Shown here in pieces: positions 4,888 to 20,962 of a stretch of 25,068 bases of DNA. Made by a program: the position numbers and the translations under genes. The stretch covers positions 1 through 25,068 of IMG/VR virus record IMGVR_UViG_3300025543_000194. One strand, given 5' to 3'. Each line of letters opens with the position of its first letter. The first letter of the stretch is position 1. The notes beneath the pieces are model-generated. The model saw only the letters and a program-made list of their open reading frames with translations. It had not been told where the DNA came from and searched no databases. This DNA comes from a virus.

Positions 4888-5304
4888 ATGAGTACATTAA
4901 AAATCAATGAACGAAATCCGTTCGACATTCTATTTAGAAATTTCTTCAACGCTGAAGAACAGTTTGCTCCGGCATTCACCTCCAAACCCTCCCATCCCTT
5001 AGACATTTATTACGACGATGAAGGCTTACACTTTGATGTTGCCTGTACTGGACTCACTAAAGAAAATATTTCTATTAGTGTTGAGGGAGATTTATTAAAA
5101 ATTAGTTATAAAAAACCAGAAAATGAATTAGATTTTTCAGGTTATATTTACCACGGTTTATCCCGTAAGTCATTCGACTTGGGATATAAAATTTCTCCTA
5201 AGTTTAATTTAACTAAAATTAATGCTGAAATGGAGAATGGATTATTAAAAATCCACATCCCCGTTTCAGAGGAATCAAAACCAAAAACAATTAAAATTAA
5301 GTAA
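4888..5304 (+). CDS. hsp20: Small heat shock protein, Hsp20/alpha-crystallin family
   Basis: A 138-residue protein with the alpha-crystallin domain from about residue 37 to 130: the first strand LDIYYDDEGLHFDVACTGL, then KENISISVEGDLLKISY, and the typical second half ending in NGLLKIHIPV. The N-terminus has the usual NPFD...FRNFF amphipathic start of bacterial class A Hsp20, and the tail ends in a TIKIK element, close to the IxI motif that docks between dimers. It would hold unfolded proteins without ATP, handing them to the GroEL machinery encoded next. Hsp20 is known in T4-like cyanophages. The first third uses more C-ending codons than its neighbours. It has its own promoter and no clear terminator behind it. 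Confidence 0.93.
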   Translation: MSTLKINERNPFDILFRNFFNAEEQFAPAFTSKPSHPLDIYYDDEGLHFDVACTGLTKENISISVEGDLLKISYKKPENELDFSGYIYHGLSRKSFDLGYKISPKFNLTKINAEMENGLLKIHIPVSEESKPKTIKIK

Positions 5305-5318
5305 GTTTTATAATAAAG

Positions 5319-5348
5319 CGTGTCCTAGCGCAATTTTGTTCGTATATT
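5319..5348 (+). promoter_or_regulatory. Promoter of the GroES-GroEL unit
   Basis: CGTG at 5319-5322, 20 bases, TATATT at 5343-5348, then a 26-base leader to the ATG at 5375 in an AATAAGTTATATG context. The -33 element is weaker (CGTG rather than TTTG), like that at 23630. GCGTGTCCTAG (5318-5328) is an inverted copy of a spacer segment in the hsp20 promoter. Confidence 0.65.
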
Positions 5349-5374
5349 GACGACACAAAATAAAAATAAGTTAT

Positions 5375-5688
5375 ATGGCAAACACAACAATTAAAGATCC
5401 AGCGATCGAACCATTTTACATTTCTAGAGATCAATACTGTTATACAGTAATTGAAACTATTACCCCAGAAGAAAAAAATATTGGGAAATTTGGTAAAAAA
5501 GACAATGGTAACCAAGGTAAGGATTATGAAAAACCTTTAGGACATTATTCTTCATTAGCCTCTGCTTTGAAAAAAATAGCTAAGTCTAAACTTGATCTTA
5601 AAACTGAGTATTCTACAATTATGGAATACATCAATGAATGGCAGAGACAACAGGATGAAATGGAAAAATTATTAAATAAAATAGGAAT

Positions 5689-5692
<4 letters not shown>
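5375..5692 (+). CDS. Unknown protein, first gene of the chaperonin unit
   Basis: I do not recognise this 105-residue protein. The N-terminal half has a beta-like segment (EPFYISRDQYCYTVIETI), a Gly/Lys/Asn-rich linker near residues 38-52, and then a helix-forming C-terminal half (from SLASALKKIAKSKL onwards) with charged residues and a Gln/Glu-rich stretch. There is no signal peptide or membrane segment. It is the first gene after its promoter and its stop overlaps the GroES start (ATGA), so it is translated with the chaperonin. A role as a cofactor of the chaperonin or simply as a co-expressed early protein are both possible; nothing in the sequence decides between them. Confidence 0.8.
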
Positions 5693-7600
<1,908 letters not shown>

Positions 7601-7983: not shown

Positions 7984-8913
7984 ATGATAAAAAAAGAACA
8001 TTCACTTTGGGTTGAGAAATATAGAAGTACTGATTTAAATACTTATGTCGGTAATGAGAATATTAAAAAAACTATTCAACAATATCTTGACCAGAATGAC
8101 ATTCAGAATTTCATTTTCTCCGGACCGGCTGGAACTGGGAAAACGACTTTGGCTAAGCTTATTGTTAATAATCTGGACTGCGATTATATTTACATCAACG
8201 CTAGTGATGAACGTGGTATCGATACTATCCGAGATAAAGTATCGGGTTTTGCAAGTGCTGCATCTTTCAAAGGTATTAAAGTAGTTATATTAGATGAGGC
8301 TGATTTTATCACAATTCAAGGCCAAGCAGCACTTCGAAATGTAATTGAAACCTATTCTCGTACTACACGTTTTATTTTAACTTGTAATTTTGTTGAGCGT
8401 ATCATTGATCCTCTACAATCACGTTGTCAAGTACTTAAAATTGTACCCCCATCAAAAGCGGATATTGCAAAACATATAGCAGGTATCATTGAGAAAGAAA
8501 ATGTAGAATATAAAATAGATGATATTAAACTATTAGTTAACCAATTCTACCCAGACTTGAGAAAAATGCTTAACACAGCACAATTATCAACTCAAGAAGG
8601 TAAATTAGTAATTGATAAATCAATTATTGTATCCTCTAATTACACAGCTCAAGTATTAAAAGAATTAATTAAATCAAAACCTAGTTGGAATGAAATCAGA
8701 CAAATTATCGCAAACGCGAATGTTCAAGACTTTGAGGAATTATACCGTTTCCTTTATGATAACGCTTCTACTTTTGCCTCAGGAAACGAGGGAATGGTTG
8801 CAATTTATATCAACGAGTATTCGTACCAAGCTAACTTTAGAATCGATAAAGAAATTTGTACGATGGGATTAATTGCTCGTCTTATTGAACTATCACAACC
8901 ACGAGTATTATGA
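7984..8913 (+). CDS. 44: Clamp loader large subunit, AAA+ ATPase (T4 gp44-like)
   Basis: ATPase that opens the sliding clamp and loads it on primer ends; four copies act with one gp62. At 309 residues it is near T4 gp44 (319). An RFC-like start (LWVEKYR) leads to Walker A GPAGTGKT (47-54), Walker B VVILDEAD (100-107), sensor 1 in ILTCNF, and the SRC motif (146-148) typical of RFC-type loaders, where Arg contacts the neighbouring ATP. The C-terminal collar is helical. The 5' third uses more C- and G-ending codons than the rest. It opens a transcription unit and its stop overlaps the next start (ATGA). Confidence 0.95.
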   Translation: MIKKEHSLWVEKYRSTDLNTYVGNENIKKTIQQYLDQNDIQNFIFSGPAGTGKTTLAKLIVNNLDCDYIYINASDERGIDTIRDKVSGFASAASFKGIKVVILDEADFITIQGQAALRNVIETYSRTTRFILTCNFVERIIDPLQSRCQVLKIVPPSKADIAKHIAGIIEKENVEYKIDDIKLLVNQFYPDLRKMLNTAQLSTQEGKLVIDKSIIVSSNYTAQVLKELIKSKPSWNEIRQIIANANVQDFEELYRFLYDNASTFASGNEGMVAIYINEYSYQANFRIDKEICTMGLIARLIELSQPRVL

Positions 8914-9101
8914 AACAATTCCTAAAATTCTTAACGATTTGGATAAGTCAAAACTTATCCATCCCGTTTTGGATGATAGGACACGTTCATTTAAGTATAA
9001 ACGTTTACAAAGACATACACGAGATTTTAGCCAGCTTAGGTATGAATATTATAGTATTAATTGGCTTTCTTTTAGATTATAAACAAAACAAAAAACAATG
9101 A
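8910..9101 (+). CDS. Unknown small protein between clamp-loader genes
   Basis: A 63-residue protein of unknown function. It is chained on both sides by ATGA overlaps, with the stop of gp44 upstream and the start of the gene at 9098 downstream. Its codons follow the local preference (Leu almost always TTA, Lys always AAA), while an overlapping open frame (8873-9082) uses CTT, TTG and AAG and lacks such junctions, so I favour this frame. The protein is fairly hydrophobic; a segment near residues 41-57 (LASLGMNIIVLIGFLL) could be a short membrane helix, followed by a Lys-rich tail. A membrane link for a replication gene neighbour would be unusual, so this is only a suggestion. Confidence 0.6.
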   Translation: MKQFLKFLTIWISQNLSIPFWMIGHVHLSINVYKDIHEILASLGMNIIVLIGFLLDYKQNKKQ

Positions 9102-9322
9102 ATCAACAACAACCAAACATTGACTTGTCAAAAACGACGTCAATCGAAACTCCAAATGGAGGTAAAATCTGGCAACAAGGAGTTATGCTACGTAAAATTT
9201 CTAAATTTATTATTGGAGCAGATGAGGATGGAATTATCCCAATCCCTGTATTTTTTGATCCTGAAACAGGAGAAGTACTACAGGACACATTACCAAAAGA
9301 ACTAAGAAACTCAGCAGAGTAA
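9098..9322 (+). CDS. Unknown small protein between clamp-loader genes
   Basis: A 74-residue soluble protein that I do not recognise. It starts in an ATGA overlap and its stop shares a base with the next ATG (TAATG), so it is almost certainly translated with the clamp-loader subunits. It has a Gln/Asn-rich start, a Gly-rich turn (TPNGGKIWQQG), a strand-like block (VMLRKISKFIIG), then an acidic turn and a proline-rich segment (GIIPIPVFFDPETGEVL). The DPETGEVL end looks like a beta-hairpin. Position suggests a replication accessory role; the sequence alone shows none. Confidence 0.8.
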   Translation: MNQQQPNIDLSKTTSIETPNGGKIWQQGVMLRKISKFIIGADEDGIIPIPVFFDPETGEVLQDTLPKELRNSAE

Positions 9323-9744
9323 TGAATCTCTTTGATTGGCTAAATGTAATTACTTATACTAAACAAGACTGGAATTCCTTTACAGAGGATGAACAGTCTT
9401 CGTTTAGTCCTTACATTGTTCATAGATATGTGAGTATGTATTACGGATATACAGATATTGCAAACATCGCACAAAAGTTGCCGATGACTGAAAAAGAAAA
9501 AATTTTTACCGTTTACAAAACAATGTTGCCAAAGAAGAAAATGTTTTTAAAATACATTAAAAACCAAAACAAAAAGAATTACAAGGAATTATCAGAATAT
9601 ATAGCTGATTATTTTGAATGTGGGTTAGGAGAAGCCGAAGAATATATTGATATTATTCGAGTTACAGGTGTGCGAGAAATTCTATGGAAAATGGGGATAG
9701 ATGATAAGAAAACAGAAAAAATTATTAAAGAAGCAAAGTTATAA
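9322..9744 (+). CDS. 62: Clamp loader small subunit (T4 gp62-like)
   Basis: A 140-residue, mostly helical protein; T4 gp62 has 187. The opening NLFDWLNVITYTKQDW followed by a segment ending YIVHRYVSMYYGY resembles gp62 proteins of T4-like phages, which begin with a short helix, a lysine-containing turn and a conserved N/HRxxSM motif. gp62 has no ATPase site, and none is seen here. It would complete the 4:1 complex with gp44, whose gene is 408 bases upstream in the same overlapping run. The short length means the C-terminal part of T4 gp62 is absent. Identification is by motif and position. Confidence 0.8.
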   Translation: MNLFDWLNVITYTKQDWNSFTEDEQSSFSPYIVHRYVSMYYGYTDIANIAQKLPMTEKEKIFTVYKTMLPKKKMFLKYIKNQNKKNYKELSEYIADYFECGLGEAEEYIDIIRVTGVREILWKMGIDDKKTEKIIKEAKL

Positions 9745-9761
9745 AATAAATCAAAATAGTT

Positions 9762-10235
9762 ATGAGTTTAAAAAAATTAAAAAAAGATTGGGTTTCAACT
9801 TCAACAGGAACTGCTAATGGAATTTCAGGTTATAGTGAAGAAATTAATTTAGTTCCAATTTCTAGCACTAAAGAATTCAATCCCAATACTGGAGATGAAA
9901 AAGCAGTTTATGATTTCGAAAAAACATATCCTTCATTAGCTGAATCTTGGAAAGAAGTACAAGCAGAACAATATACTTTATTTGCTAAAAAAATGATGGA
10001 TTATGGTTTAGGAAACATTGCTCTCGGTACTTCACTTGAAGAACCTGAAGATATACAATTATCATTGACTGGTATTTGGTTGCGCGTTAACGACAAGATA
10101 AACCGCCTAAAAAACATACTAAGACGTAATGGTAAAAATTATGTTAACGGGGAAACAATGATTGATAGTTTTATTGATATTGCTAATTATGGTATTATTG
10201 CTATGTTAGTAATAAAAGATAAATGGAAAAAATGA
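9762..10235 (+). CDS. DUF1599-like protein (nucleotide-modification-associated type)
   Basis: A 157-residue protein. The C-terminal part, about residues 66-155, matches the DUF1599 pattern as I know it: a helix with EQYTLFAKKMMDYG, an N-I-A-LG turn, SLTGIWLRVNDKINRLKN, and a last helix DSFIDIANYGIIAMLV. DUF1599 (PF07659) has been grouped with domains found near phage DNA base-modification enzymes and is all-helical; the conserved Asp/Glu/Asn/Arg residues suggest nucleotide binding. The N-terminal 60 residues are low-complexity and polar. The start has the AAAATAGTTATG context. It directly precedes, and overlaps, the first FkbM methyltransferase of the glycan cluster, which raises the idea of a shared nucleotide- or DNA-modification role. 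Confidence 0.65.
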   Translation: MSLKKLKKDWVSTSTGTANGISGYSEEINLVPISSTKEFNPNTGDEKAVYDFEKTYPSLAESWKEVQAEQYTLFAKKMMDYGLGNIALGTSLEEPEDIQLSLTGIWLRVNDKINRLKNILRRNGKNYVNGETMIDSFIDIANYGIIAMLVIKDKWKK

Positions 10236-10888
10236 AAAGAGGAACTAGAATAGTTAGTATAAAAAACACCCCCATGATTATATTTGAACATCCTGAGTGT
10301 ATATCTGATGATATAGTAAAATATGATAATTTCTGGGAATTTGAACTATTTAATAAGTGGCGGAAATACTTCCCCACAGATGGTTTAATGTTGGATATAG
10401 GAGCAAATATTGGTTCACATTGTGTACAATTTAAAGTTGCTTTTCCCAATTTAAAAATATGGGCTTTTGAACCTTTCCCTGAAAATTTTAATTTATTAAA
10501 ACAAAATATTGAACAATTTGAAGATGTTCATGCTTTTAATGTAGGAATAGGAAGTAATAACTCAATGGTTTATTTTGGTGATGAATCCCCAAATAATTCA
10601 GGTGTGGTAAGAGTAATAGAAAAAAGTAATAATACTAATCTAGTTTTATCTTTAGATACTATTAAATTCCCAGAACCAGTGAAAATGATTAAAATTGATA
10701 TTGAAGGTCATGAATTATCAGCATTCGAAGGAATGAAACAATTATTGTTAAAGGATAAACCATTAATATGGTTAGAAGATTTAACCTCACTATCAACCTC
10801 AAATAACCCCGTTAGTTATTTAAAAACGTTAGGGTACAATATTATAGAACAAGAAATCTCATCTTGTGATTTCTTAATGAAAATTTAA
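10232..10888 (+). CDS. FkbM family methyltransferase
   Basis: SAM-dependent methyltransferase of about 218 residues. SAM-binding motif I is LDIGANIGSHC, about 55-65 residues from the start, followed by an acidic motif II (AFEPFPENF). The FkbM signature IKIDIEGHELSAFEGM lies near residues 153-168 and the protein ends with a normal FkbM C-terminus. FkbM enzymes usually O-methylate sugars or polyketides. I chose the ATG at 10232 because it forms an ATGA overlap with the preceding stop; an ATG at 10223 would add three residues. A second, divergent FkbM gene ends the cluster at 15978, suggesting that two positions of one product are methylated. Confidence 0.88.
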   Translation: MKRGTRIVSIKNTPMIIFEHPECISDDIVKYDNFWEFELFNKWRKYFPTDGLMLDIGANIGSHCVQFKVAFPNLKIWAFEPFPENFNLLKQNIEQFEDVHAFNVGIGSNNSMVYFGDESPNNSGVVRVIEKSNNTNLVLSLDTIKFPEPVKMIKIDIEGHELSAFEGMKQLLLKDKPLIWLEDLTSLSTSNNPVSYLKTLGYNIIEQEISSCDFLMKI

Positions 10889-10901
10889 AACATAAATAGT
10901 T

Positions 10902-11855
10902 TTGCCTAAAAAGAAAAAAACACTTCCTATAATAAAGGAAATATTAAAAAAATCGGAGCGTGAGGTAAACTATGGATATGAAAAAGGTATTTCATTTTCT
11001 CAAATGTCTATGTTTAGAAGTTGTCCTAGAAAATGGGCCTTACAATATAGAGATGGACATAAAACTCACGAATCCTCCATCCATATGACATTTGGAACAG
11101 CAATCCATGAAACAATCCAAAATTACTTAGATGTAATGTATGATACTAGTGGAGCCGAAGCCGATAGAATTGATATACAACAATATTTTGAGGAGCGTTT
11201 TAGAGAAACATATTTAAAAGATTATAAATCAAATAAAAATATCCACTACAGCAACCCTGCTGAGATGAAGGAATTTTTTGATGATGGAATGGAAATATTA
11301 AATCATTTCAAAAAGAAACGTAATAGTCATTTTAAGAAAAAAGGATGGCATTTAGTTAAATGTGAATTACCATTATTAATTGCGCCTAATCCCACGTATA
11401 AAAACGTATTATACCGCGGTTACCTCGATATTGTATTATACCACGAACCCACCAATTCAATCAAGATTATAGACATTAAAACATCTACTCGTGGCTGGGG
11501 TGATAAGGAGAAAAAAGATGAAGATAAACAATTTCAACTCATTCTATACAAAAAATACTTCTCAGAACAATTTGGATTCCCAGTAGATAATATTGATATT
11601 GAGTTCTTTATTGTTAAACGTAAATTGTATGAGAGTGAGGATTATGTAATTCCTCGTATTCAATTATTTAAACCTGCCTCTGGTAAAATTAAAATGAGTA
11701 GAGCAGAAAAAGCAGTAAATGAATTTATTGAAAAAGCATTCACACCCGAAGGTAAATATAAAGATGATATTATGATTCCAAATGAAAGTAAATGGAATTG
11801 TGGTTTTTGCCCATTTAAGAACAAAAAAGATTTATGCCCTGTAGGTATAACATAA
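10902..11855 (+). CDS. PD-(D/E)XK nuclease, Cas4/AddB-like with probable Fe-S cluster
   Basis: A 317-residue RecB-type nuclease. The order of motifs is FGTAIHE (His69), GYLD (Asp176), IIDIKTS (Asp191, Lys193) and an QFQLILY motif (near 210-216), which is the full RecB/Cas4 active site. One Cys lies at residue 41 (RSCPRKW) and three at 300, 303 and 312 near the C-terminus, the one-plus-three spacing that holds a 4Fe-4S cluster in Cas4 and AddB. It probably trims DNA ends in replication or recombination. The start is TTG in the AATAGTT context; the first ATG lies 34 codons further on and would cut into the conserved SQMSMFRSC segment. It sits between modification genes rather than CRISPR genes, and no array is seen. 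Confidence 0.9.
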   Translation: MPKKKKTLPIIKEILKKSEREVNYGYEKGISFSQMSMFRSCPRKWALQYRDGHKTHESSIHMTFGTAIHETIQNYLDVMYDTSGAEADRIDIQQYFEERFRETYLKDYKSNKNIHYSNPAEMKEFFDDGMEILNHFKKKRNSHFKKKGWHLVKCELPLLIAPNPTYKNVLYRGYLDIVLYHEPTNSIKIIDIKTSTRGWGDKEKKDEDKQFQLILYKKYFSEQFGFPVDNIDIEFFIVKRKLYESEDYVIPRIQLFKPASGKIKMSRAEKAVNEFIEKAFTPEGKYKDDIMIPNESKWNCGFCPFKNKKDLCPVGIT

Positions 11856-11877
11856 ATAAAAATAAATATTAAATACT

Positions 11878-12069
11878 ATGAGTAATAAAAACATGACATT
11901 AACATCAGTTAAAGTCCAATCAGAATTATTTGAAGAATTCAAAATATCTTGTGTAAGGTATAAATTTTCTTTACAAAAACTTACGGATCGTACAATCCAT
12001 TTATATCTTACAGATGAGGAATTTCGTAAAAAAATACACACACATACTGACTTAAATATAAACGAATAA
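11878..12069 (+). CDS. Ribbon-helix-helix-like small protein
   Basis: A 63-residue protein with a pattern like a CopG/Arc DNA-binding fold: a short strand (TLTSVKVQSE), helix A (LFEEFKISCVRY), a turn, helix B (SLQKLTDRTIHLYL), then a charged tail. Ribbon-helix-helix proteins bind DNA as dimers with the strand in the major groove, and small ones are common phage regulators. The basic and hydrophobic spacing fits, but the family is too short for certainty. It lies 22 bases after the nuclease and 12 bases before the first glycosyltransferase, so it may regulate the cluster or just be an unrelated early protein. Confidence 0.65.
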   Translation: MSNKNMTLTSVKVQSELFEEFKISCVRYKFSLQKLTDRTIHLYLTDEEFRKKIHTHTDLNINE

Positions 12070-12081
12070 TATAACTAATAC

Positions 12082-13524
12082 ATGAAAAATAGTTTTGATT
12101 ATCTCCCAAAAAATGAGAGGAAGAAAATAATGCTCATCTGTGATGACATCAGAGTCCACTCAGGAGTAGCTACAGTTGCGAGAGAAATAGTAACAAAAAC
12201 AGCACACCATTTTAATTGGATAAATATAGCAGGTTCTATAAAACATCCGGATAAAGGACAACGTTTAGATGTATCTGAAGATACTAATAAAATTATTAAT
12301 ATAGATGATTCATCCGTGATGTTGTACCCTGTAGATGGTTATGGTAATGCTGATCTTATTAGAGATATCATTAACTTAGAAAAACCAGATGCTATAATGT
12401 TGATTACCGATCCTCGTTATTTTGAGTTCATATTTGCTATGGAAAACGAAATTCGTAAACATATTCCAATTGCTTACTTAAATATATGGGATGATTACCC
12501 CGCTCCCTTATATAACAAGGCATATTATGAAGCATGTGATTTATTGATGGGTATTAGTAAACAAACAGTTAATATTAATAAATTAGTATTAGGTGATAAA
12601 AAAGATGATAAAATCAACCGTTATATACCTCATGGGTTAGATAAAAATACATTCTATCCCTTAGAAGAATCAAACCCACAATGGTTAGAATTTCAAAACT
12701 TCAAAAATAGTGTTTTAGTAAATAAAGATATAGACTTTGTATTATTTTTTAATTCTCGAAACATAAGACGTAAGCAAATTCCTGATACAATGTTATCTTT
12801 TAGGTATTTCTTAGATCAATTACCTAAAGAAAAGGCAAAAAAATGTGTTATGTTACTCCATACAGAGATAGTAAATGATCATGGAACTGATTTGAAAGCG
12901 GTTAAGGAATTATTATTTGAGGGTTTTGAAGATAATGTGGTATTTCATACTGATAAACTCCCACCAAATTATATGAACTATTTATATAATATGTCGGATG
13001 CACAAATATTACTTAGTTCAAACGAAGGTTGGGGATTAAGTTTAACAGAAGCTATATTAGTAGGTAACCCAGTTATAGCCAATGTAACAGGTGGTATGCA
13101 AGATCAACTTGGTTTTAGAAATGAAAAAGGTGAATGGATTGATTTTGATGCTGACTTTCCTTCAAACCATACAGGGAAATATAAAGAATGTGGTGAATGG
13201 GCATTCCCTATTTTTCCATCGAATCGTTCAATTCAAGGTTCACCTAAAACCCCTTATATTTGGGATGATAGATGTAATGCTGAAGATGCAGCCGAACAAA
13301 TAATGAATATTTATTCATTAAGTAAAAAAGAACGCAAGGAAATAGGAATAAAAGGACGTGAATTTGCTATAAATGAAGGTGGATTTACATCTGAAAGACA
13401 AGCAGATAGAGTAATAGAAGCATTTGATACATTGTTTAAAACTTGGATCCCAAGAAAAAATTATGAATTTATTAATGCTAATATTGTAGATAAAAAAGTT
13501 GTACCACATAAATTATTATACTAA
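12082..13524 (+). CDS. GT-B glycosyltransferase (GT4-like)
   Basis: A 480-residue glycosyltransferase with two Rossmann-like domains. The N-terminal domain begins with KIMLICDDIRVHSGVATVAREI, where the Gly-containing loop is like the acceptor side of GT4 enzymes. The C-terminal nucleotide-sugar domain has the E-x7-E motif (Glu315 to Glu323, in EGWGLSLTE) followed by GNPVIANVTGG, typical of GT4 donors. The enzyme would transfer a sugar from an NDP-sugar. The gene abuts the next glycosyltransferase with no gap, so the two are clearly co-expressed. Acceptor unknown: virion protein, host surface glycan, or modified phage DNA are all open. Confidence 0.85.
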   Translation: MKNSFDYLPKNERKKIMLICDDIRVHSGVATVAREIVTKTAHHFNWINIAGSIKHPDKGQRLDVSEDTNKIINIDDSSVMLYPVDGYGNADLIRDIINLEKPDAIMLITDPRYFEFIFAMENEIRKHIPIAYLNIWDDYPAPLYNKAYYEACDLLMGISKQTVNINKLVLGDKKDDKINRYIPHGLDKNTFYPLEESNPQWLEFQNFKNSVLVNKDIDFVLFFNSRNIRRKQIPDTMLSFRYFLDQLPKEKAKKCVMLLHTEIVNDHGTDLKAVKELLFEGFEDNVVFHTDKLPPNYMNYLYNMSDAQILLSSNEGWGLSLTEAILVGNPVIANVTGGMQDQLGFRNEKGEWIDFDADFPSNHTGKYKECGEWAFPIFPSNRSIQGSPKTPYIWDDRCNAEDAAEQIMNIYSLSKKERKEIGIKGREFAINEGGFTSERQADRVIEAFDTLFKTWIPRKNYEFINANIVDKKVVPHKLLY

Positions 13525-14811
13525 ATGAAACCACTATTTATAATTAGCTCACCATTTAATACTTATTCAGGTTATGGTGCCAGAAGTAGAGATATTATTA
13601 AAGCAATTATTGCTACTGAAAAATATGATGTTAAATTAATATCCCAAAGATGGGGAAATACCCCCTTTGGGTTCTGCAAAGACAACTCAGAATGGTCTAA
13701 TTTATTAGAATTATCAATCCCCCCTCAAGTAAATTCAAAACCAGATATATGGATGCAAATAACTATACCAAGTGAATTCCAATCAATTGGAAAATATAAT
13801 ATAGGAGTTACAGCCGGTATAGAAACAACACTATCACCTGGAGAATGGGTTGAAGGTATTAATAGAATGGATTTAAATTTAGTTTCATCTAATCACTCTA
13901 AAAATACATTTTTATCTACTATTTTAGAGAAAAAAGATAAAAATGGTAATATATTAGGTAAAGTAAAAGTTGAAAAACCAATTGAAGTATTATTTGAAGG
14001 AGCAAATACAGATGTATATAAATCTCAAAACACCCCATGTTCATTAGATATCCAAATTAAGGAAGATTTTGCTTATTTATTTGTAGGACATTGGATGCAG
14101 GGAGATATGGGAGAAGATAGAAAAAATATTGGGCTATTAATCAAAGCATTTTATGAAACCTTCAAAAACAAAGCCAAAAAACCAGCTTTAATATTAAAAA
14201 CTACACAAGTAGGTTCATCATATACTGATAGAGATGAAATACTTAGAAAGATTAACTTAATCAAAGATACAGTAAAGTCAAATGATTTACCTAATGTTTA
14301 TTTACTTCATGGGGAATTTACAGATGATGAAATGAATGAGATATATAATCATTCAAAAGTTAAAGCTATGATTAGTTTAACTAAAGGTGAAGGATTTGGA
14401 AGACCATTACTTGAATTTAGTTTATCTAAAAAACCAATTATCGTGAGTGGATGGAGTGGACATATGGATTTTTTAGATGAAAAATTCAATACCTTTTTAG
14501 GAGGTATACTAACTAATGTTCATCAATCTTCAGCAAACCAATTTTTACTTCCCGAATCCCAATGGTTCTCTCCCGACCATATGCAGATTAATCAGGTGTT
14601 AAAAGATGTATTTGAAAATTATAAAAAATATATAGATGGTGGAAAAAGACAAGCATATAAAAGTAGGAAAGAATTTAGTTGGGAAGCCATGAAAGATTTA
14701 TTATCTTCCCTCCTAGAAACAAATATACCTGAATTTCCAACCCAGATAGAATTAAAAATACCTCAATTAAAAAAAGTTGAATCACCTAAAATAGAAAAAG
14801 TAAATGGATAG
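13525..14811 (+). CDS. GT-B glycosyltransferase (GT4-like), second copy
   Basis: A 428-residue GT-B enzyme. The N-terminal part opens with FIISSPFNTYSGYGARSRD, a Gly-rich GT4 acceptor loop. The donor domain carries the E-x7-E motif at Glu289-Glu297 (EGFGRPLLE) followed by KKPIIVSGWSGHMDFL. A long insert near residues 185-200 (HWMQGDMGEDRKN) precedes the donor domain. It differs clearly from the upstream enzyme, so it likely adds a different sugar to the same chain. The first codon follows the upstream stop with no intervening base; its own stop is overlapped by the next gene. Confidence 0.85.
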   Translation: MKPLFIISSPFNTYSGYGARSRDIIKAIIATEKYDVKLISQRWGNTPFGFCKDNSEWSNLLELSIPPQVNSKPDIWMQITIPSEFQSIGKYNIGVTAGIETTLSPGEWVEGINRMDLNLVSSNHSKNTFLSTILEKKDKNGNILGKVKVEKPIEVLFEGANTDVYKSQNTPCSLDIQIKEDFAYLFVGHWMQGDMGEDRKNIGLLIKAFYETFKNKAKKPALILKTTQVGSSYTDRDEILRKINLIKDTVKSNDLPNVYLLHGEFTDDEMNEIYNHSKVKAMISLTKGEGFGRPLLEFSLSKKPIIVSGWSGHMDFLDEKFNTFLGGILTNVHQSSANQFLLPESQWFSPDHMQINQVLKDVFENYKKYIDGGKRQAYKSRKEFSWEAMKDLLSSLLETNIPEFPTQIELKIPQLKKVESPKIEKVNG

Positions 14812-15256
14812 TTTAATAAATTGTAATAAATGTAACTCAGATGCTTGTTATGTAGAAGAAGTAACGGCTGATATAAAAACATTTTTCTGCTATGGGTGCG
14901 GTTTCCAATCTAGTTCATTAATGAAAGACTCAGAAGAATTTTATGATGAACAACTTAAATCACTCCCTGAATTATATAAAGATTTAATATATAATGATGG
15001 TGAAAAAAATTGGATGCCTACATTGGTTAATTTACCTCAACAAGGTATGATATTTGCTAATGGGGTCAATAAACTTGATTGGAAATGGAGTGCAGTTAAA
15101 GCAATCCCCGTAACTGATGAAGATAAAATAAAATACCCAATCCCAGGAAAAGAAGGTGAATTTTACGAATGGAGAATGGACATGACAACTATGGAAAATT
15201 TTGAAGAGCGTGATTTTATGGAAGCATTAAGCTACATAGGTGTACTTCCTGAATAA
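14804..15256 (+). CDS. Zinc-ribbon protein of unknown function
   Basis: A 150-residue protein. The N-terminus has C7-x2-C10 and C29-x2-C32, a four-cysteine zinc ribbon of about 30 residues, and the rest is acidic with Trp- and Pro-rich stretches (KLDWKWSAVKAIPV, then YPIPGKEGEFYEWRMD). There is no catalytic motif that I know. Its start overlaps the end of the second glycosyltransferase by eight bases. Zinc ribbons in phages often serve protein-protein or protein-nucleic-acid contacts, but the C-terminal part could bind a ligand; I cannot assign a function. Confidence 0.8.
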   Translation: MDSLINCNKCNSDACYVEEVTADIKTFFCYGCGFQSSSLMKDSEEFYDEQLKSLPELYKDLIYNDGEKNWMPTLVNLPQQGMIFANGVNKLDWKWSAVKAIPVTDEDKIKYPIPGKEGEFYEWRMDMTTMENFEERDFMEALSYIGVLPE

Positions 15257-15268
15257 GGTTAGTATGTT
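15239..15268 (+). promoter_or_regulatory. Possible weak promoter before the GT-A gene
   Basis: GGTG (15239-15242), 20 bases, TATGTT (15263-15268) in the short gap before 15322. Both elements deviate from the better sites, so this is a low-confidence call that rests mainly on the exact spacing. Confidence 0.3.
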
Positions 15269-15321
15269 AAAATGAGAAAGAAACGAATAATAAAACACCT
15301 AAATTGTAAATATATAGAATT

Positions 15322-15981
15322 ATGGAAATAAAAATTTCATATGCTCTCACAGTTTGTGATGAGTTTATAGAGATACAAAACCTCCTCTATTTCCTCCTCA
15401 AACGTAAACGTCCTCAAGATGAAGTAGTGGTTTTAGTTGATATGACTAAAAACGAACCAACATCTCAATTATTAGGATATCTTCATAAATTGAGTTACAA
15501 TGATTATATTACTCTAGTAGAAGATAACTTTAATAACCATTTTGCCGATTGGAAAAATAGATTAACTAGAGCTTGTACAGGAGATTATATCTTCCAGATA
15601 GATGCTGATGAGATACCAAATGAATATCTTATAGAAAATCTACCATCCCTATTAGAAGCAAACCCTGAAGTTGATATGTTGAGAGTATCTAGAGTTAATA
15701 CTGTAGAAGGCTTAACTGAAGAACATATTAAAAAATGGGGTTGGAATGTAAATGAGAAAGGATGGGTAAATTGGGCGGATTGGCAAATGAGAATTTATAG
15801 AAACACATCAAACATTAAATGGGTTAATAAGGTACACGAGGTATTAGAAGGATTTAAACTCCATGGTATGCTACCTCTTGAAGAAGAGTGGGCATTATAC
15901 CACCCAAAAACAATTGAAAAACAAGAAAAAGCAGTTAAACTATATCAAACAATAAATCCAAACGTAAAAGAAAAAATATGA
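15322..15981 (+). CDS. GT-A glycosyltransferase (GT2-like)
   Basis: A 219-residue family 2-type enzyme. The beginning (ISYALTVCDEFIEIQNLL) fits the nucleotide-binding first strand of a GT-A fold, VVVLVDMT follows, and the metal-binding DxD motif is DAD at residues 94-96 (FQIDADEIP). A later segment, WADWQMRIYRN...WVNKVHEVLEG, resembles the acceptor-side region of small GT2 proteins of the Kdo/LPS type. The enzyme would transfer a sugar with inversion. Its stop overlaps the next methyltransferase start (ATGA), which binds it to the cluster. No membrane segment is present, so it acts in the cytoplasm. Confidence 0.85.
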   Translation: MEIKISYALTVCDEFIEIQNLLYFLLKRKRPQDEVVVLVDMTKNEPTSQLLGYLHKLSYNDYITLVEDNFNNHFADWKNRLTRACTGDYIFQIDADEIPNEYLIENLPSLLEANPEVDMLRVSRVNTVEGLTEEHIKKWGWNVNEKGWVNWADWQMRIYRNTSNIKWVNKVHEVLEGFKLHGMLPLEEEWALYHPKTIEKQEKAVKLYQTINPNVKEKI

Positions 15982-16625
15982 AATATTATGGTCAAGTTTT
16001 TAGTGGTATCCCTGTAGATAAATTTCTACACGATAATTACTTCTCAGGGAAAAAAGATGGTTTCTTCATTGAATGTGGAGCAGCCGATGGTTTTAATCTA
16101 TCATGTTGTAAGTTTTTTGAGGAACAGATGGGTTGGAAAGGAATAAATGTTGAAGCTAGTCCTGCTAAGTATAAAAAATTAGTTGAAAATAGACCAAACT
16201 CATTTTTAAATATAAATAAAGGTCTTCTTAATGAACCCGGTTCATTTGTATTTAGAGACGATACTGTAGAAGACCCAACTAAAGCACCAGGATGGGGTAA
16301 TGGTTCATTTCAACATATGGAAAATCACTACCATCAACTTCATAACATGGGAGTAACCCTTCAAGAATCAGTAGTAGAAGTAATTACATATAAACAATTA
16401 ATTGAAGAAAATAATATTAAAAATATTGATTTATTTATATTAGATGTTGAAGGTGTTGAACCTATGATTCTTGAAAGTATGAAAGAATGCGATGTATTAC
16501 CCACTCATTTATTTATTGAACATGAACATTTTGGTTTAGAATTATGTAAAGAATTAACATCACATTTGGGATATACATTAGATTGGAATGATTTTTGTAA
16601 CTCTATGTATATTCTAAATAAATAA
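15978..16625 (+). CDS. FkbM family methyltransferase, second copy
   Basis: A 215-residue methyltransferase, clearly different from the one at 10232. SAM motif I reads IECGAADG (31-38), preceded by GFF and followed by a Cys-rich helix; NVEASP forms motif II near residues 57-62, and the FkbM post-motif is LDVEGVEPMIL (155-165). The last part (FIEHEHFGLEL, NSMYILNK) is standard for this group. Its start overlaps the stop of the GT2-like gene. With the other FkbM gene it brackets the cluster, so it probably methylates a sugar added by the neighbouring transferases. Confidence 0.88.
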   Translation: MKYYGQVFSGIPVDKFLHDNYFSGKKDGFFIECGAADGFNLSCCKFFEEQMGWKGINVEASPAKYKKLVENRPNSFLNINKGLLNEPGSFVFRDDTVEDPTKAPGWGNGSFQHMENHYHQLHNMGVTLQESVVEVITYKQLIEENNIKNIDLFILDVEGVEPMILESMKECDVLPTHLFIEHEHFGLELCKELTSHLGYTLDWNDFCNSMYILNK

Positions 16626-16630
16626 AAAAT

Positions 16631-16786
16631 ATGAAACGTTATTATTTTTACATAAATACAGATAAAAACAAAGAACCTATAATGTCTTATAATGCATTCA
16701 GTAGATTAAAAGCAGCAAATTACTTTGCTGCTATGAAACAAATGGATTTAAAGACATTTTTAACCCTTTTTTCTATTAGTCGATGA
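16631..16786 (+). CDS. Small conserved-type phage protein
   Basis: A 51-residue protein. It has a tyrosine-rich start (KRYYFYINTDKNKEPI), then a helix with residues LKAANYFAAMKQM, and a C-terminal LKTFLTLFSISR. The pattern of an aromatic strand, a KEP turn and an AAxYFA helix resembles small proteins I associate with T4-like phages, but I cannot name the family. It lies five bases after the FkbM stop and its stop overlaps the next start (ATGA), which supports translation. Confidence 0.7.
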   Translation: MKRYYFYINTDKNKEPIMSYNAFSRLKAANYFAAMKQMDLKTFLTLFSISR

Positions 16787-17157
16787 AAGAACTTGGTAAA
16801 TATTTAAATATCAAAAAACGAAATTCCCTTTTATCGGAAAAAGAAATGTTTTGTGATTTGGTAGATTTATATGAATCACTCGTTTTAAGGGGGGATGAAT
16901 TAGATGAAAAATACTCCCTTAATTTAACAGAATATGAAGATGATTTTTACTTACTTATAGAAAATTTATTCTATCTCCACTATGGTGATTGGAAAACAGA
17001 AATAATTACCTGGTATGTATGGGAGAGAAAAAACCATTCAACTGGAGAAATTGGACTCTTAGAATGGACAAATATGGAAACAGATGAAACAAAAGATGTC
17101 ATAATTAAATGTGCTAAGGATTTGTGGGATATATTTAAAAAAATTGAAAATAAATAA
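16783..17157 (+). CDS. Unknown acidic protein
   Basis: A 124-residue acidic, mostly helical protein that I do not recognise. Tryptophans cluster in a central stretch (GDWKTEIITWYVWERKN) followed by ETGE/ETDE-like turns, and the C-terminus is a lysine-rich helix. There is no Cys motif, signal or membrane segment. Its start is in an ATGA overlap with the preceding small gene, and one base separates it from the zinc-finger gene at 17159. It may be a binding partner of host proteins; no function can be assigned. Confidence 0.8.
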   Translation: MKELGKYLNIKKRNSLLSEKEMFCDLVDLYESLVLRGDELDEKYSLNLTEYEDDFYLLIENLFYLHYGDWKTEIITWYVWERKNHSTGEIGLLEWTNMETDETKDVIIKCAKDLWDIFKKIENK

Positions 17158-17158
17158 T

Positions 17159-17449
17159 ATGAAAAGATATTGTATAGGATGTAAAGAATTAATTCACCCA
17201 AAACGCTTAGAAATAATTCCAAATACAAAAACTTGTGTTACTTGCTCAACTACCCCAGTAAAAAGAGGAGTAACAGTACTTAGAGGAAATGTTGATAAAG
17301 ATGATACTTGGGTTGATATTGTATTTTTAGAACAAGAAGAATATGAAGAATATGAAAAATCATTAGGTAGAATAAAAAAACCAAAAAAATTACCTAAAGA
17401 GAAAATCCAAAATTATAATATTGATGATAATATCAAAATTGTAGATTAA
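17159..17449 (+). CDS. DksA/TraR-type zinc finger protein
   Basis: A 96-residue protein with C5-x2-C8 and C26-x2-C29 joined by a segment (KELIHPKRLEIIPNTKT) that matches the C4 finger of DksA/TraR proteins, including the RLE and P-x-T/R-x-C turn. DksA acts in the secondary channel of RNA polymerase; phage TraR-like proteins can mimic it. This protein lacks the long coiled coil in front of the finger, and its acidic EEYEEYEKS region lies behind it, so it may be a reduced form or merely a finger of the same shape. The ATG at 17159 is preferred because an upstream in-frame start lies deep in the previous gene. Confidence 0.7.
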   Translation: MKRYCIGCKELIHPKRLEIIPNTKTCVTCSTTPVKRGVTVLRGNVDKDDTWVDIVFLEQEEYEEYEKSLGRIKKPKKLPKEKIQNYNIDDNIKIVD

Positions 17450-17480: not shown

Positions 17481-18116
17481 TTGCCGAAAGCCAAACCATT
17501 AACTAAAGAAATGATTTTAGCCTCTATAGCTAAGACTAAAAGTAACAGAGCAGCAAGTCGTTATTTAAATGTTTCCTATCAACATTATAAAAAATGGGCT
17601 AAATTTTATGAAGCTACAACCGAAGGATATAAAACATTATTTGACCAGCATCTAAATCAATCAGGTAAAGGTATTCCAAAATTTTTAAATCCTGGAAAGA
17701 GTGATTTTGATGTATTAGATATAATTGAAGGAAGACTAGATGCTTCATCTTTTAATCCATCCAAAATCAAACACAGAATGATTGAAAATGGTTATATTAA
17801 AGAAGAATGTAATCAGTGTGGGTATCATGAAAGACGTGTACTGGATTATAAAATGGCTTTATTACTTCATTTTAAAGACGGTAATAAAAAACACTATGGT
17901 TTAAACAATGTTGAATTTTTATGTTATAATTGTTATTTTACATCTATAGGTGATATATTTAATGATAAACAAATCGAAGGGATGGAAGATCATAAACCAA
18001 TAAACCAAGCAGAGGTAGATTGGCAGCTTGATGATTACACCAAACAACGTTTAAAAGAATTAGGTTTGGGAGAGGATGAAGATGATGATGAGTTAGATAT
18101 AATTTCAAGGATATGA
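17481..18116 (+). CDS. Helix-turn-helix plus HNH-like zinc protein
   Basis: A 211-residue protein starting at TTG in a TAAGAATT context. Residues 10-42 look like a homeodomain-type helix-turn-helix (ILASIAKTKSNRAASRYLNV, then a KKWAKFY recognition helix). Residues 110-151 have C110-x2-C113 and C148-x2-C151 around LHFKDGN and NNVEFLC, the layout of an HNH endonuclease zinc fold. The catalytic His of the usual DHIxGN-type motif is Phe131 here, and the last His of CxxCH is Tyr152, so it is probably not an active nuclease. The C-terminus is acidic (EDEDDDELD). A DNA-binding regulator or packaging-type adaptor is likely. Its stop overlaps the next start (ATGA). Confidence 0.7.
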   Translation: MPKAKPLTKEMILASIAKTKSNRAASRYLNVSYQHYKKWAKFYEATTEGYKTLFDQHLNQSGKGIPKFLNPGKSDFDVLDIIEGRLDASSFNPSKIKHRMIENGYIKEECNQCGYHERRVLDYKMALLLHFKDGNKKHYGLNNVEFLCYNCYFTSIGDIFNDKQIEGMEDHKPINQAEVDWQLDDYTKQRLKELGLGEDEDDDELDIISRI

Positions 18117-19431: not shown

Positions 19432-20127
19432 ATGAAAAAAACGTTATTATTAGTGATTGCAGCTACAATGTTGTTTAGCTGTGGTAAAAAGGAAGATGCT
19501 ATCGTAAAACTTCACGACGGTTATTATGCTTTTTGTGGAGCGTCTGGTGCTATTGCAACTGGTGACTCAATTACTGTTCAAGGTGTAAAATTTGCAGAAG
19601 GATGTGCTATATGTCCTGTATTCCCAGATACATCAATTTCAAATCTAGCAATGTATGGTGTAAGTCCAAGCTGGGGTAAATTAATGGGTACTGAAGGTCA
19701 ATTTGATGTTAGAAGGAATTTCCAATTTCCGGGTAACGATGGAAGTACAAGATGGGATGGAAAATCAGTTTGGTCATTGTATCATTATTTTGATACATCA
19801 ACTTATGTTCCTCAGTTCAATCCAGCTACTCTTAGTTGGGAAATGATGAAACCAGGTAATCGTGCATTTATTGTAAATACCGATTCAGCACACACAAGTG
19901 AAAGTAATATGTTCTGTATGCCTTGTCAAATTATTGACACTACAGAAACAGGTATTATATTAGCTAGATGTTTTGGTCCGTTAAATGAAGCAGCAGTTCC
20001 ATTACGAAAACCATTAGCAGTAAAATCAGGTATGGAGTCAATTACAGCAGCAATACCAGGTAAACCTTATCCTGTAGGAACACCAGTTCCACTTATGAAA
20101 TTAGGTAAAAAATCAAAAACTAAATAA
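19432..20127 (+). CDS. Phage-encoded lipoprotein with CxxC pairs
   Basis: A 231-residue secreted protein. Residues 1-17 (MKKTLLLVIAATMLFSC) are a lipoprotein signal peptide with Cys17 as the lipidated residue. The mature part has six further cysteines (35, 58, 61, 162, 165, 180), including CAIC and CMPC pairs, which could bind metal or form disulfides, and Trp/Tyr-rich central stretches (STRWDGKSVWSLYHYF). I do not recognise the fold. After signal peptidase II cleavage it would sit in the inner leaflet of the outer membrane or the inner membrane; Bacteroidota may export it further to the surface. Superinfection exclusion or lysis support are the obvious guesses. Confidence 0.8.
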   Translation: MKKTLLLVIAATMLFSCGKKEDAIVKLHDGYYAFCGASGAIATGDSITVQGVKFAEGCAICPVFPDTSISNLAMYGVSPSWGKLMGTEGQFDVRRNFQFPGNDGSTRWDGKSVWSLYHYFDTSTYVPQFNPATLSWEMMKPGNRAFIVNTDSAHTSESNMFCMPCQIIDTTETGIILARCFGPLNEAAVPLRKPLAVKSGMESITAAIPGKPYPVGTPVPLMKLGKKSKTK

Positions 20128-20128
20128 A

Positions 20129-20962
20129 ATGAAACAAGTATTATTATTAATCGTTGCAGTCACAATGTTATATAGTTGCGTATCTAACGTAAAGGAAATA
20201 GCAGGCACCACAATCTATACCCCAACCTTTAAAATTGATTATAACCAATGTGGTACGCCAATTATCGACAGTAACTCCGTATCATTCAACCCAGGCCGTG
20301 TAAGATCAGTAGAAACTTATAAAAATATTTCTAAAATATCGGCTACAGTAGATCTATCAGGTTTAACTGATGTAAATTGGGTAAATGCTTCTTTTTATAT
20401 GGTAAATGGAAGTGGAGATTATTGTGATGCCGGTAATTCAGGTTCACCTTATTGTAATGAGATTGATTTTCTAGAAACTAATGGTAATGTAGCAACACAA
20501 ACTACAATTCATTTAGACAACCAGCAAAATTATGAATATGCTTATTTAAAATCATTGTTTACAACCCCCTGTTGGGATCAAGACAAGATGACTTCACCAA
20601 CTAACAAGGGTATTTATGATGCTTCCGTTATTGATCCAACAAAACCATTTGATGTAATTACGGAATTTACTTCTGATTATAGTAATATGACTACAATATT
20701 TGCCCAAGATGGGGATACAGTAATGGTATATGATTATGTAAAAAACACCAGCTCCGAAGGTAGTAACTTACAGAATCTTGATGGTTTAGCTAAGTCAATG
20801 GATAATGGGTGGAAAGTTGTTGCTTCATTATGGCAAGGTTACTCACCAAATCCCAATTCAAGTTACTCGTATGAAGATGAGATGTGCCGAGAATGGTCTA
20901 ATGTTTGCGATAGTAAATTTATCATTTCAAATATTAGAGTAACAGCTGAGGATGAATTTTAA
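20129..20962 (+). CDS. Phage-encoded lipoprotein with glycosidase-like motif
   Basis: A 277-residue protein with a lipoprotein signal ending at Cys17 (MKQVLLLIVAVTMLYSC). The mature part looks like a concanavalin-type jelly-roll: alternating strands, six cysteines (41, 99, 109, 148, 253, 260) that could form three disulfides, and the motif YCNEIDFLETNG (108-119). E111-x-D113-x2-E116 has the ExDxxE arrangement of clan GH-B (GH7/GH16), which cuts beta-glucan-type chains. Other blocks (DPTKPFDVITEF and GWKVVASLWQGY) resemble strands of that fold. The enzymatic call is by motif only. Its start lies one base after the preceding stop, and a terminator follows. Confidence 0.7.
   Translation: MKQVLLLIVAVTMLYSCVSNVKEIAGTTIYTPTFKIDYNQCGTPIIDSNSVSFNPGRVRSVETYKNISKISATVDLSGLTDVNWVNASFYMVNGSGDYCDAGNSGSPYCNEIDFLETNGNVATQTTIHLDNQQNYEYAYLKSLFTTPCWDQDKMTSPTNKGIYDASVIDPTKPFDVITEFTSDYSNMTTIFAQDGDTVMVYDYVKNTSSEGSNLQNLDGLAKSMDNGWKVVASLWQGYSPNPNSSYSYEDEMCREWSNVCDSKFIISNIRVTAEDEF

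Follow-up and report, generated by a model that had tools for sequence, protein, structure and literature searches.

A conserved glycosyltransferase core with a hypervariable sugar cassette beside the replication genes of Bacteroidota-type phages

The moraphages, large aquatic phages of Bacteroidota, are PolB phages with predicted Bacteroidota hosts and have the T4 and Lak groups as relatives, and the sections of their description considered here count four putative glycosyltransferases among the core gene groups (PMC12619734). The known phage DNA glucosyltransferases belong to GT63/GT72 or TAGT and not to glycosyltransferase family 4 (GT4) (PMC13216743), the glycosyltransferases of chloroviruses are mostly predicted to be soluble (PMC9614988), and the glycosyltransferase domain of GmaR transfers N-acetylglucosamine (GlcNAc) to flagellin (PMC9638930). 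In this study we analyzed a run of glycosyltransferase genes in the IMG/VR virus record IMGVR_UViG_3300025543_000194, the whole of which, 25,068 bases, is the window; it is a fragment and not a full genome. The window belongs to a T4-like phage, with PolB, a sliding-clamp-like gene, Hsp20, GroES, GroEL and homologues of gp44 and gp62 upstream of the sugar genes. We found a fixed glycosyltransferase core, joined to a sugar cassette that is almost wholly replaced between close relatives, in environmental phage contigs numbering several hundred or more, and we hold with high confidence that the two make up a phage-encoded, soluble glycosylation locus. Its probable role is to give a component of the phage a sugar coat that can change.

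The conserved core and the exchangeable cassette

The open reading frames (ORFs) of about 100, and later 197, related loci were mapped against the proteins of the window, and each adjacency count takes as its denominator the loci with enough contig to show the neighbour. Across the 197 loci there is a fixed unit, consisting of a PD-(D/E)XK nuclease, a 63-residue protein, two GT-B glycosyltransferases (GT4a and GT4b), a zinc-ribbon-like protein (ZnR) and a GT-A glycosyltransferase (GT2), in that order. The nuclease is directly upstream of GT4a in 139 of 146 loci, GT4b comes next after GT4a in 171 of 172, and ZnR and GT2 are each in their place, after GT4b (112/118) and after ZnR (109/118), respectively; this gene order exceeds chance expectation. 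The 63-residue gene is kept in 160 of the 197 loci by blastp, and its product has no match in Pfam or PHROG. Relatives of GT4a were confirmed in at least 599 viral stretches by a scan with the GT4a alignment, and GT4b in 249; the GT4b homologues in cellular sequences amount to 16 loci, every one in metagenome bins and mostly with the phage gene order. The core order reaches as far as Flavobacterium phage vB_FspM_immuto_2-6A (hereafter immuto) and Microcystis phage Mel-JY01, where ZnR was not seen; Rhodothermus phage RM378, with homologues of GT4a, GT4b (a weak match) and GT2 close together, is a weaker case. The carriers are a large family of Bacteroidota-type phages, in which the core adjoins the DNA-copying genes. 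In the 484-kb uncultured phage LR756508.1 (locus L128), a nuclease at 10256-11266 and a distant GT4a at 11998-13314 are followed downstream by GT25 transferases, sulfotransferases and a cytidylyltransferase.

An earlier, sequence-only reading of the window had described a DUF1599 protein overlapping a first FkbM gene, and after it two GT-B transferases, one GT-A transferase and a second FkbM gene in a tight co-directional run. Pfam and the coordinates confirm this arrangement, including the overlap of 13 nt between the DUF1599 gene (PF07659 above cut-off) and the first FkbM gene, and all the genes reported here lie on the + strand, separated by small gaps or overlapping. That reading had, however, missed the nuclease, the 63-residue gene and ZnR, and its grouping of everything into one cluster holds for the glycosyltransferases but not for DUF1599 or for the two methyltransferases, FkbM1 and FkbM2, which are not recent duplicates of each other and both lie outside the conserved unit. 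There is good support for its wider idea, namely that the phage has a locus for building a sugar chain and methylating it.

Both GT-B proteins have a Glycos_transf_1-type domain and the EX7E pair of GT4, invariant as E315/E323 in GT4a (alignment of 37) and as E289/E297 in GT4b (alignment of 38), and GT2 combines PF00535 with a DAD/DXD-type motif, D94 and D96 being invariant in its alignment, as for the family of that name. Because the EX7E pairs and the acidic motif are invariant, the three enzymes are probably active. The best solved relative of GT4a is the chlorovirus protein B736L (profile E-value 2.7e-13), and the GT4b profile likewise has B736L as its best. The GT2 profile finds GmaR (22ao) in the PDB with an E-value of 6.6e-14 over positions 3-202 of 207, and the single sequence finds it with 0.0012, so that GT2 is homologous to the glycosyltransferase domain of this GlcNAc transferase; GT2 is the transferase domain alone, the TPR and antirepressor domains of GmaR (layout: PMC9638930) not being present in its 219 residues. 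The AlphaFold model of ZnR has a predicted local distance difference test score (pLDDT) of 94, with no fold match in the PDB and one match among viral models. Some of the putative zinc-ligand cysteines of ZnR are lost in part of the family.

The cassette always follows GT2, and in 31 loci it is closed on the right by homologues of the window genes starting at 16783 and 17111 and by the HNH endonuclease. These 31 closed cassettes hold 1-10 genes (median 6) in 0.3-7.9 kb. Taking ORFs of at least 100 residues, the cassette pool comprised 735 ORFs, or 566 non-redundant proteins in 167 families, 76 of them singletons. A Pfam survey covering 274 proteins of the first locus set found epimerases, GDP-mannose dehydratases, DegT aminotransferases, UGDH, RmlC, transferases of the GT2, GT10 and GT11 families, FkbM proteins and acetyltransferases, i.e., functions in nucleotide-sugar synthesis, glycosyl transfer, and methylation or other decoration of glycans. 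Two loci with GT4b 97% identical (L049 and L062) have one of nine cassette families in common, and two with GT4b 93% identical (L016 and L024) have none of five; near-identical cores can carry different cassettes, which is to say that cassettes are exchanged. In the window the cassette is a single gene, FkbM2. FkbM1 occupies a further variable slot, a smaller one flanked by DUF1599 and the nuclease. Relatives fill it with other methyltransferases, a GT2, a DegT aminotransferase or an HAD/NTP-transferase fusion, or leave it empty. Among the 566 cassette proteins there is not one for which two or more membrane segments are predicted, although the same estimator gave 9 for the flippase rfbX and 6 for the polymerase wbbH of the O16 locus of E. 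coli. The phage locus therefore encodes no flippase or polymerase, unlike an O-antigen locus, which it resembles minus the export machinery.

Table 1. Genes of the glycosylation locus and its flanks in the window
Feature	Position	Strand	Evidence and remarks
gp44 clamp loader	7984-8913	+	phrog_168 and phrog_225 for the gp44/gp62 flank; left flank, order kept in relatives
74-residue gene	9098-9322	+	Left flank, order kept in relatives
gp62	9322-9744	+	Left flank; phrog_168 and phrog_225 cover gp44/gp62
DUF1599 protein, 157 residues	9762-10235	+	PF07659, 30.1 bits (cut-off 25)
FkbM1 methyltransferase, 221 residues	10223-10888	+	PF05050, E 7e-13; TIGR01444 above cut-off
PD-(D/E)XK nuclease, Cas4/RecB-like, 317 residues	10902-11855	+	PF12705, E 7.5e-20; phrog_69 exonuclease
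63-residue protein	11878-12069	+	Ribbon-helix-helix-like by inspection only
GT4a, GT-B glycosyltransferase, 480 residues	12082-13524	+	PF00534, E 6.5e-11
GT4b, GT-B glycosyltransferase, 428 residues	13525-14811	+	PF13692; phrog_2170, E 4.1e-21
ZnR, zinc-ribbon-like, 150 residues	14804-15256	+	Alignment of 50; constant core member
GT2, GT-A glycosyltransferase, 219 residues	15322-15981	+	PF00535, E 1.9e-8
FkbM2 methyltransferase, 215 residues	15978-16625	+	PF05050, E 8.5e-17; FkbM family by PF05050/TIGR01444 above cut-off
Right boundary of cassette: two genes and HNH endonuclease	16783-17157, 17111-17449, 17481-18116	+	

The acceptor of the glycan

The sequence-only reading had offered DNA, virion proteins and a host surface polysaccharide as acceptors, and these are the right three. 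We infer the order of enzyme action, the role of ZnR and the acceptor as follows. The stem of the glycan would be fixed and its outer part exchangeable. GT4a, GT4b and GT2, aided by ZnR, would act in the cytoplasm of the host, assembling a short and invariant glycan on an acceptor that is soluble and most likely a structural protein of the virion. The cassette enzymes would next supply unusual nucleotide sugars and add outer sugars or decorate them. As its cassette is a single FkbM O-methyltransferase, the phage of the window probably uses sugar donors of the host and methylates the glycan with FkbM2, and FkbM1 may supply a second methyl group.

A virion protein is our best single guess for the acceptor, at about an even chance. 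The relationships of the transferases to GmaR and B736L point towards a protein, without proving it, and the complete genomes of Mel-JY01 and RM378 have transferase homologues, yet by our searches neither a hydroxymethylase of the thymidylate synthase type nor DpdA. Several observations weigh against a virion acceptor: the locus has no structural gene; the core sits among replication genes beside a nuclease, like the DNA glucosyltransferases of T4; and DpdA co-occurs with the core in the window's clade. Moreover, GmaR-type domains resemble lipopolysaccharide (LPS)-core transferases too, so that homology is no sure guide to the acceptor, and glycans linked to lipid at the inner membrane are also within reach of soluble transferases. 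Lastly, the acceptor of B736L is itself unknown, and the capsid glycans of NY-2A are without mannose (PMC9614988).

That the core glycosylates phage DNA instead, on 7-deazaguanine inserted by DpdA or on a base activated by another enzyme, we consider unlikely. GT4a, GT4b and GT2 would then build a variable sugar chain on the base, defeating nucleases, and besides the T4-like placement of the core in the replication block, the hypervariable cassette fits such an arms race. The sequence-only reading had noted that a DNA acceptor would need genes elsewhere, and aptly so. Ten contigs (G007, G010, G017, G041, G043 and G046-G050) encode DpdA at a distance of 14.8-22.5 kb upstream of the core, these homologues being 33-38% identical to that of immuto, which is itself about 14 kb upstream of its core; within the window's clade, the gene is present in each of the nine contigs that extend as far as 22.5 kb upstream, and FolE homologues are present in both contigs tested, G007 and G017. 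(PF01702, of the TGT family, misses the annotated DpdA of immuto, and a protein query was used in its stead.) With DpdA and a FolE homologue elsewhere in large relatives, DNA is a possible rather than a demonstrated acceptor. Because the window ends short of the expected distance upstream, its phage may well have DpdA, and its group probably carries 7-deazaguanine in DNA. It is quite improbable, in our judgement, that this base bears a variable sugar chain, with a serotype-like diversity of DNA sugar coats.

It speaks against a functional link between DpdA and the core that the complete genomes of Mel-JY01 and RM378 encode the transferases but, by profile search, no DpdA; two divergent contigs likewise have the core without detectable DpdA. 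The thymidylate synthase-family genes of the window's clade are all ordinary thymidylate synthases, above the TIGR03284 cut-off and with Asn where gp42 of T4 has Asp; a dCMP hydroxymethylase was not found, the clade's records holding only the canonical synthase and the window being a fragment. A Tet/JBP search gave no match, but its control was silent. The glycosyltransferase profiles had no significant match to the alpha-glucosyltransferase of T4, and the beta-glucosyltransferase reached only 4.5 bits, with GT4b. A C5-methyltransferase was found only in Mel-JY01 and has the ordinary PCQ motif, not the SPPC reported for CmoX; the isoelectric point is uninformative about a DNA substrate, the T4 alpha-glucosyltransferase being acidic as well; and a gene of the thymidylate synthase family with a variant motif in LR756508 (9207-10022, motif IGAVWN, about 2 kb upstream of GT4a) is still called thymidylate synthase by TIGR03284 and retains the Asn.

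We give a similarly small chance to the core remodelling a host surface glycan, e.g., the core of LPS or lipooligosaccharide at the cytoplasmic face, with the result of a superinfection block or a receptor change; the host itself would then flip and export the product. Assembly of an LPS core typically involves soluble enzymes of the GT4 and GT2 families, the cassette content matches that of surface-polysaccharide loci, and the diversity of host surfaces could select for diversity of cassettes. The sequence-only reading had counted it against a modification system if the cluster in related phages lay beside surface-glycan genes only, and this is largely the case, with nucleotide-sugar and glycosyltransferase genes after GT2. 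However, flippases, polymerases and polytopic proteins are absent from the 566 cassette proteins, which argues against a complete surface-polysaccharide pathway but leaves room for modifying an LPS core already present, and the best full-length solved relative of GT2 is a protein glycosyltransferase. A lasting conversion of the host looks unlikely, since the core is in the replication block and the window has no recognisable lysogeny genes. A different acceptor inside the cell, for instance a tRNA or a protein of the host that is altered as the phage takes over, is very improbable. Enzymes of the GT2 and GT4 types that glycosylate protein or RNA exist, and relatives have genes for 7-deazaguanine precursors, but an internal host target gives no ready reason for an outer glycan that is hypervariable.

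DUF1599 and neighbouring genes

Presence of DUF1599 was scored between gp62 and the nuclease in the 165 loci that keep the sugar core. It follows gp62 in 86 and is absent from 79, the core being unaffected; on this synteny it was rejected as a component of the sugar system, and DUF1599 is probably only a neighbour from the replication block. Nor does it show, missing from so many loci, the steady association with modifying enzymes expected of a part in nucleotide or DNA modification, and the link to DNA modification drawn in the sequence-only reading falls away. Many of the loci without it, e.g., L131, L144 and L155, have in its place an ORF of 65-87 residues with conserved R..GK.KY and E..D...Y residues, for which no homology to DUF1599 is detectable. 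DUF1599 itself conserves R108, D111, K112, R115, E131, D135 and D139, and its model is a helical bundle (pLDDT 74) whose best PDB match has an E-value of only 0.79; the profile, too, found nothing significant in the PDB. For a MazG-like pyrophosphatase, with the all-alpha fold of nucleoside triphosphate pyrophosphatases, the structure search thus gave no significant match, and the small ORF often found in its place has no homology to DUF1599. That DUF1599 is a nucleotide-pool enzyme is only a guess.

Elsewhere in the window, Hsp20, GroES and GroEL lie at 4888-7600, between the sliding clamp and gp44, and the same placement recurs across the phage group. Two neighbouring genes near the endolysin gene, at 19432-20127 and 20129-20962, have lipoprotein-like signal sequences ending in Cys. 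In the relatives L024, L058, L062 and L092-L094, PolB is in two ORFs, as if an intron or an insertion interrupted it or the gene had split. The sequence TATAAATA, tried as a late-promoter motif, occurs no more often than by chance.

Comparison with known systems

The loci for O-antigen and capsule, such as E. coli O16 and the Bacteroides polysaccharide (PS) loci (PMC3090145), similarly enclose, between conserved flanks, nucleotide-sugar, transferase and decorating genes in a block that varies, but they carry a Wzx flippase and a Wzy polymerase, of which the phage locus has none. The alpha- and beta-glucosyltransferases that act on T4 DNA are likewise encoded in the replication region of a T4-like phage; that system differs in its dCMP hydroxymethylase, which was not found here, and in its glycosyltransferase families (PMC13216743), the transferases of our locus having no significant match to the alpha- or beta-glucosyltransferase. 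Chloroviruses glycosylate autonomously with virus-encoded, mostly soluble transferases (PMC9614988), and theirs is the closest solved relative of GT4a and GT4b. They are, however, eukaryotic giant viruses, and share no gene order with the phage locus. In mycobacteriophages, Freeman is said to have found in 2023 (cited in PMC12619734) that phage transferases decorate capsid and tail proteins; compared by description, that virion glycosylation involves few genes and, to our knowledge, no variable cassette for sugar synthesis. For the moraphages, also compared by description, the sections of the report considered here do not describe a fixed order with nuclease and ZnR or a hypervariable sugar cassette, and they likewise leave DNA and the virion as options (PMC12619734).

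Among cultured phages, immuto has the PD-(D/E)XK nuclease, a 60-residue gene, GT4a (53%), GT4b (56%), ZnR and GT2, with aminotransferase, epimerase and methyltransferase genes after GT2. It differs from the window in having DNA polymerase A, in the lack of DUF1599 beside the core and in its larger, unrelated cassette. If the acceptor is a virion protein, the surface glycans of these phages would vary in a way comparable to the serotypes of bacteria, and if it is DNA, the known range of DNA sugars would be widened considerably. Since immuto is a cultured relative with the same core, the question of the acceptor is directly testable.

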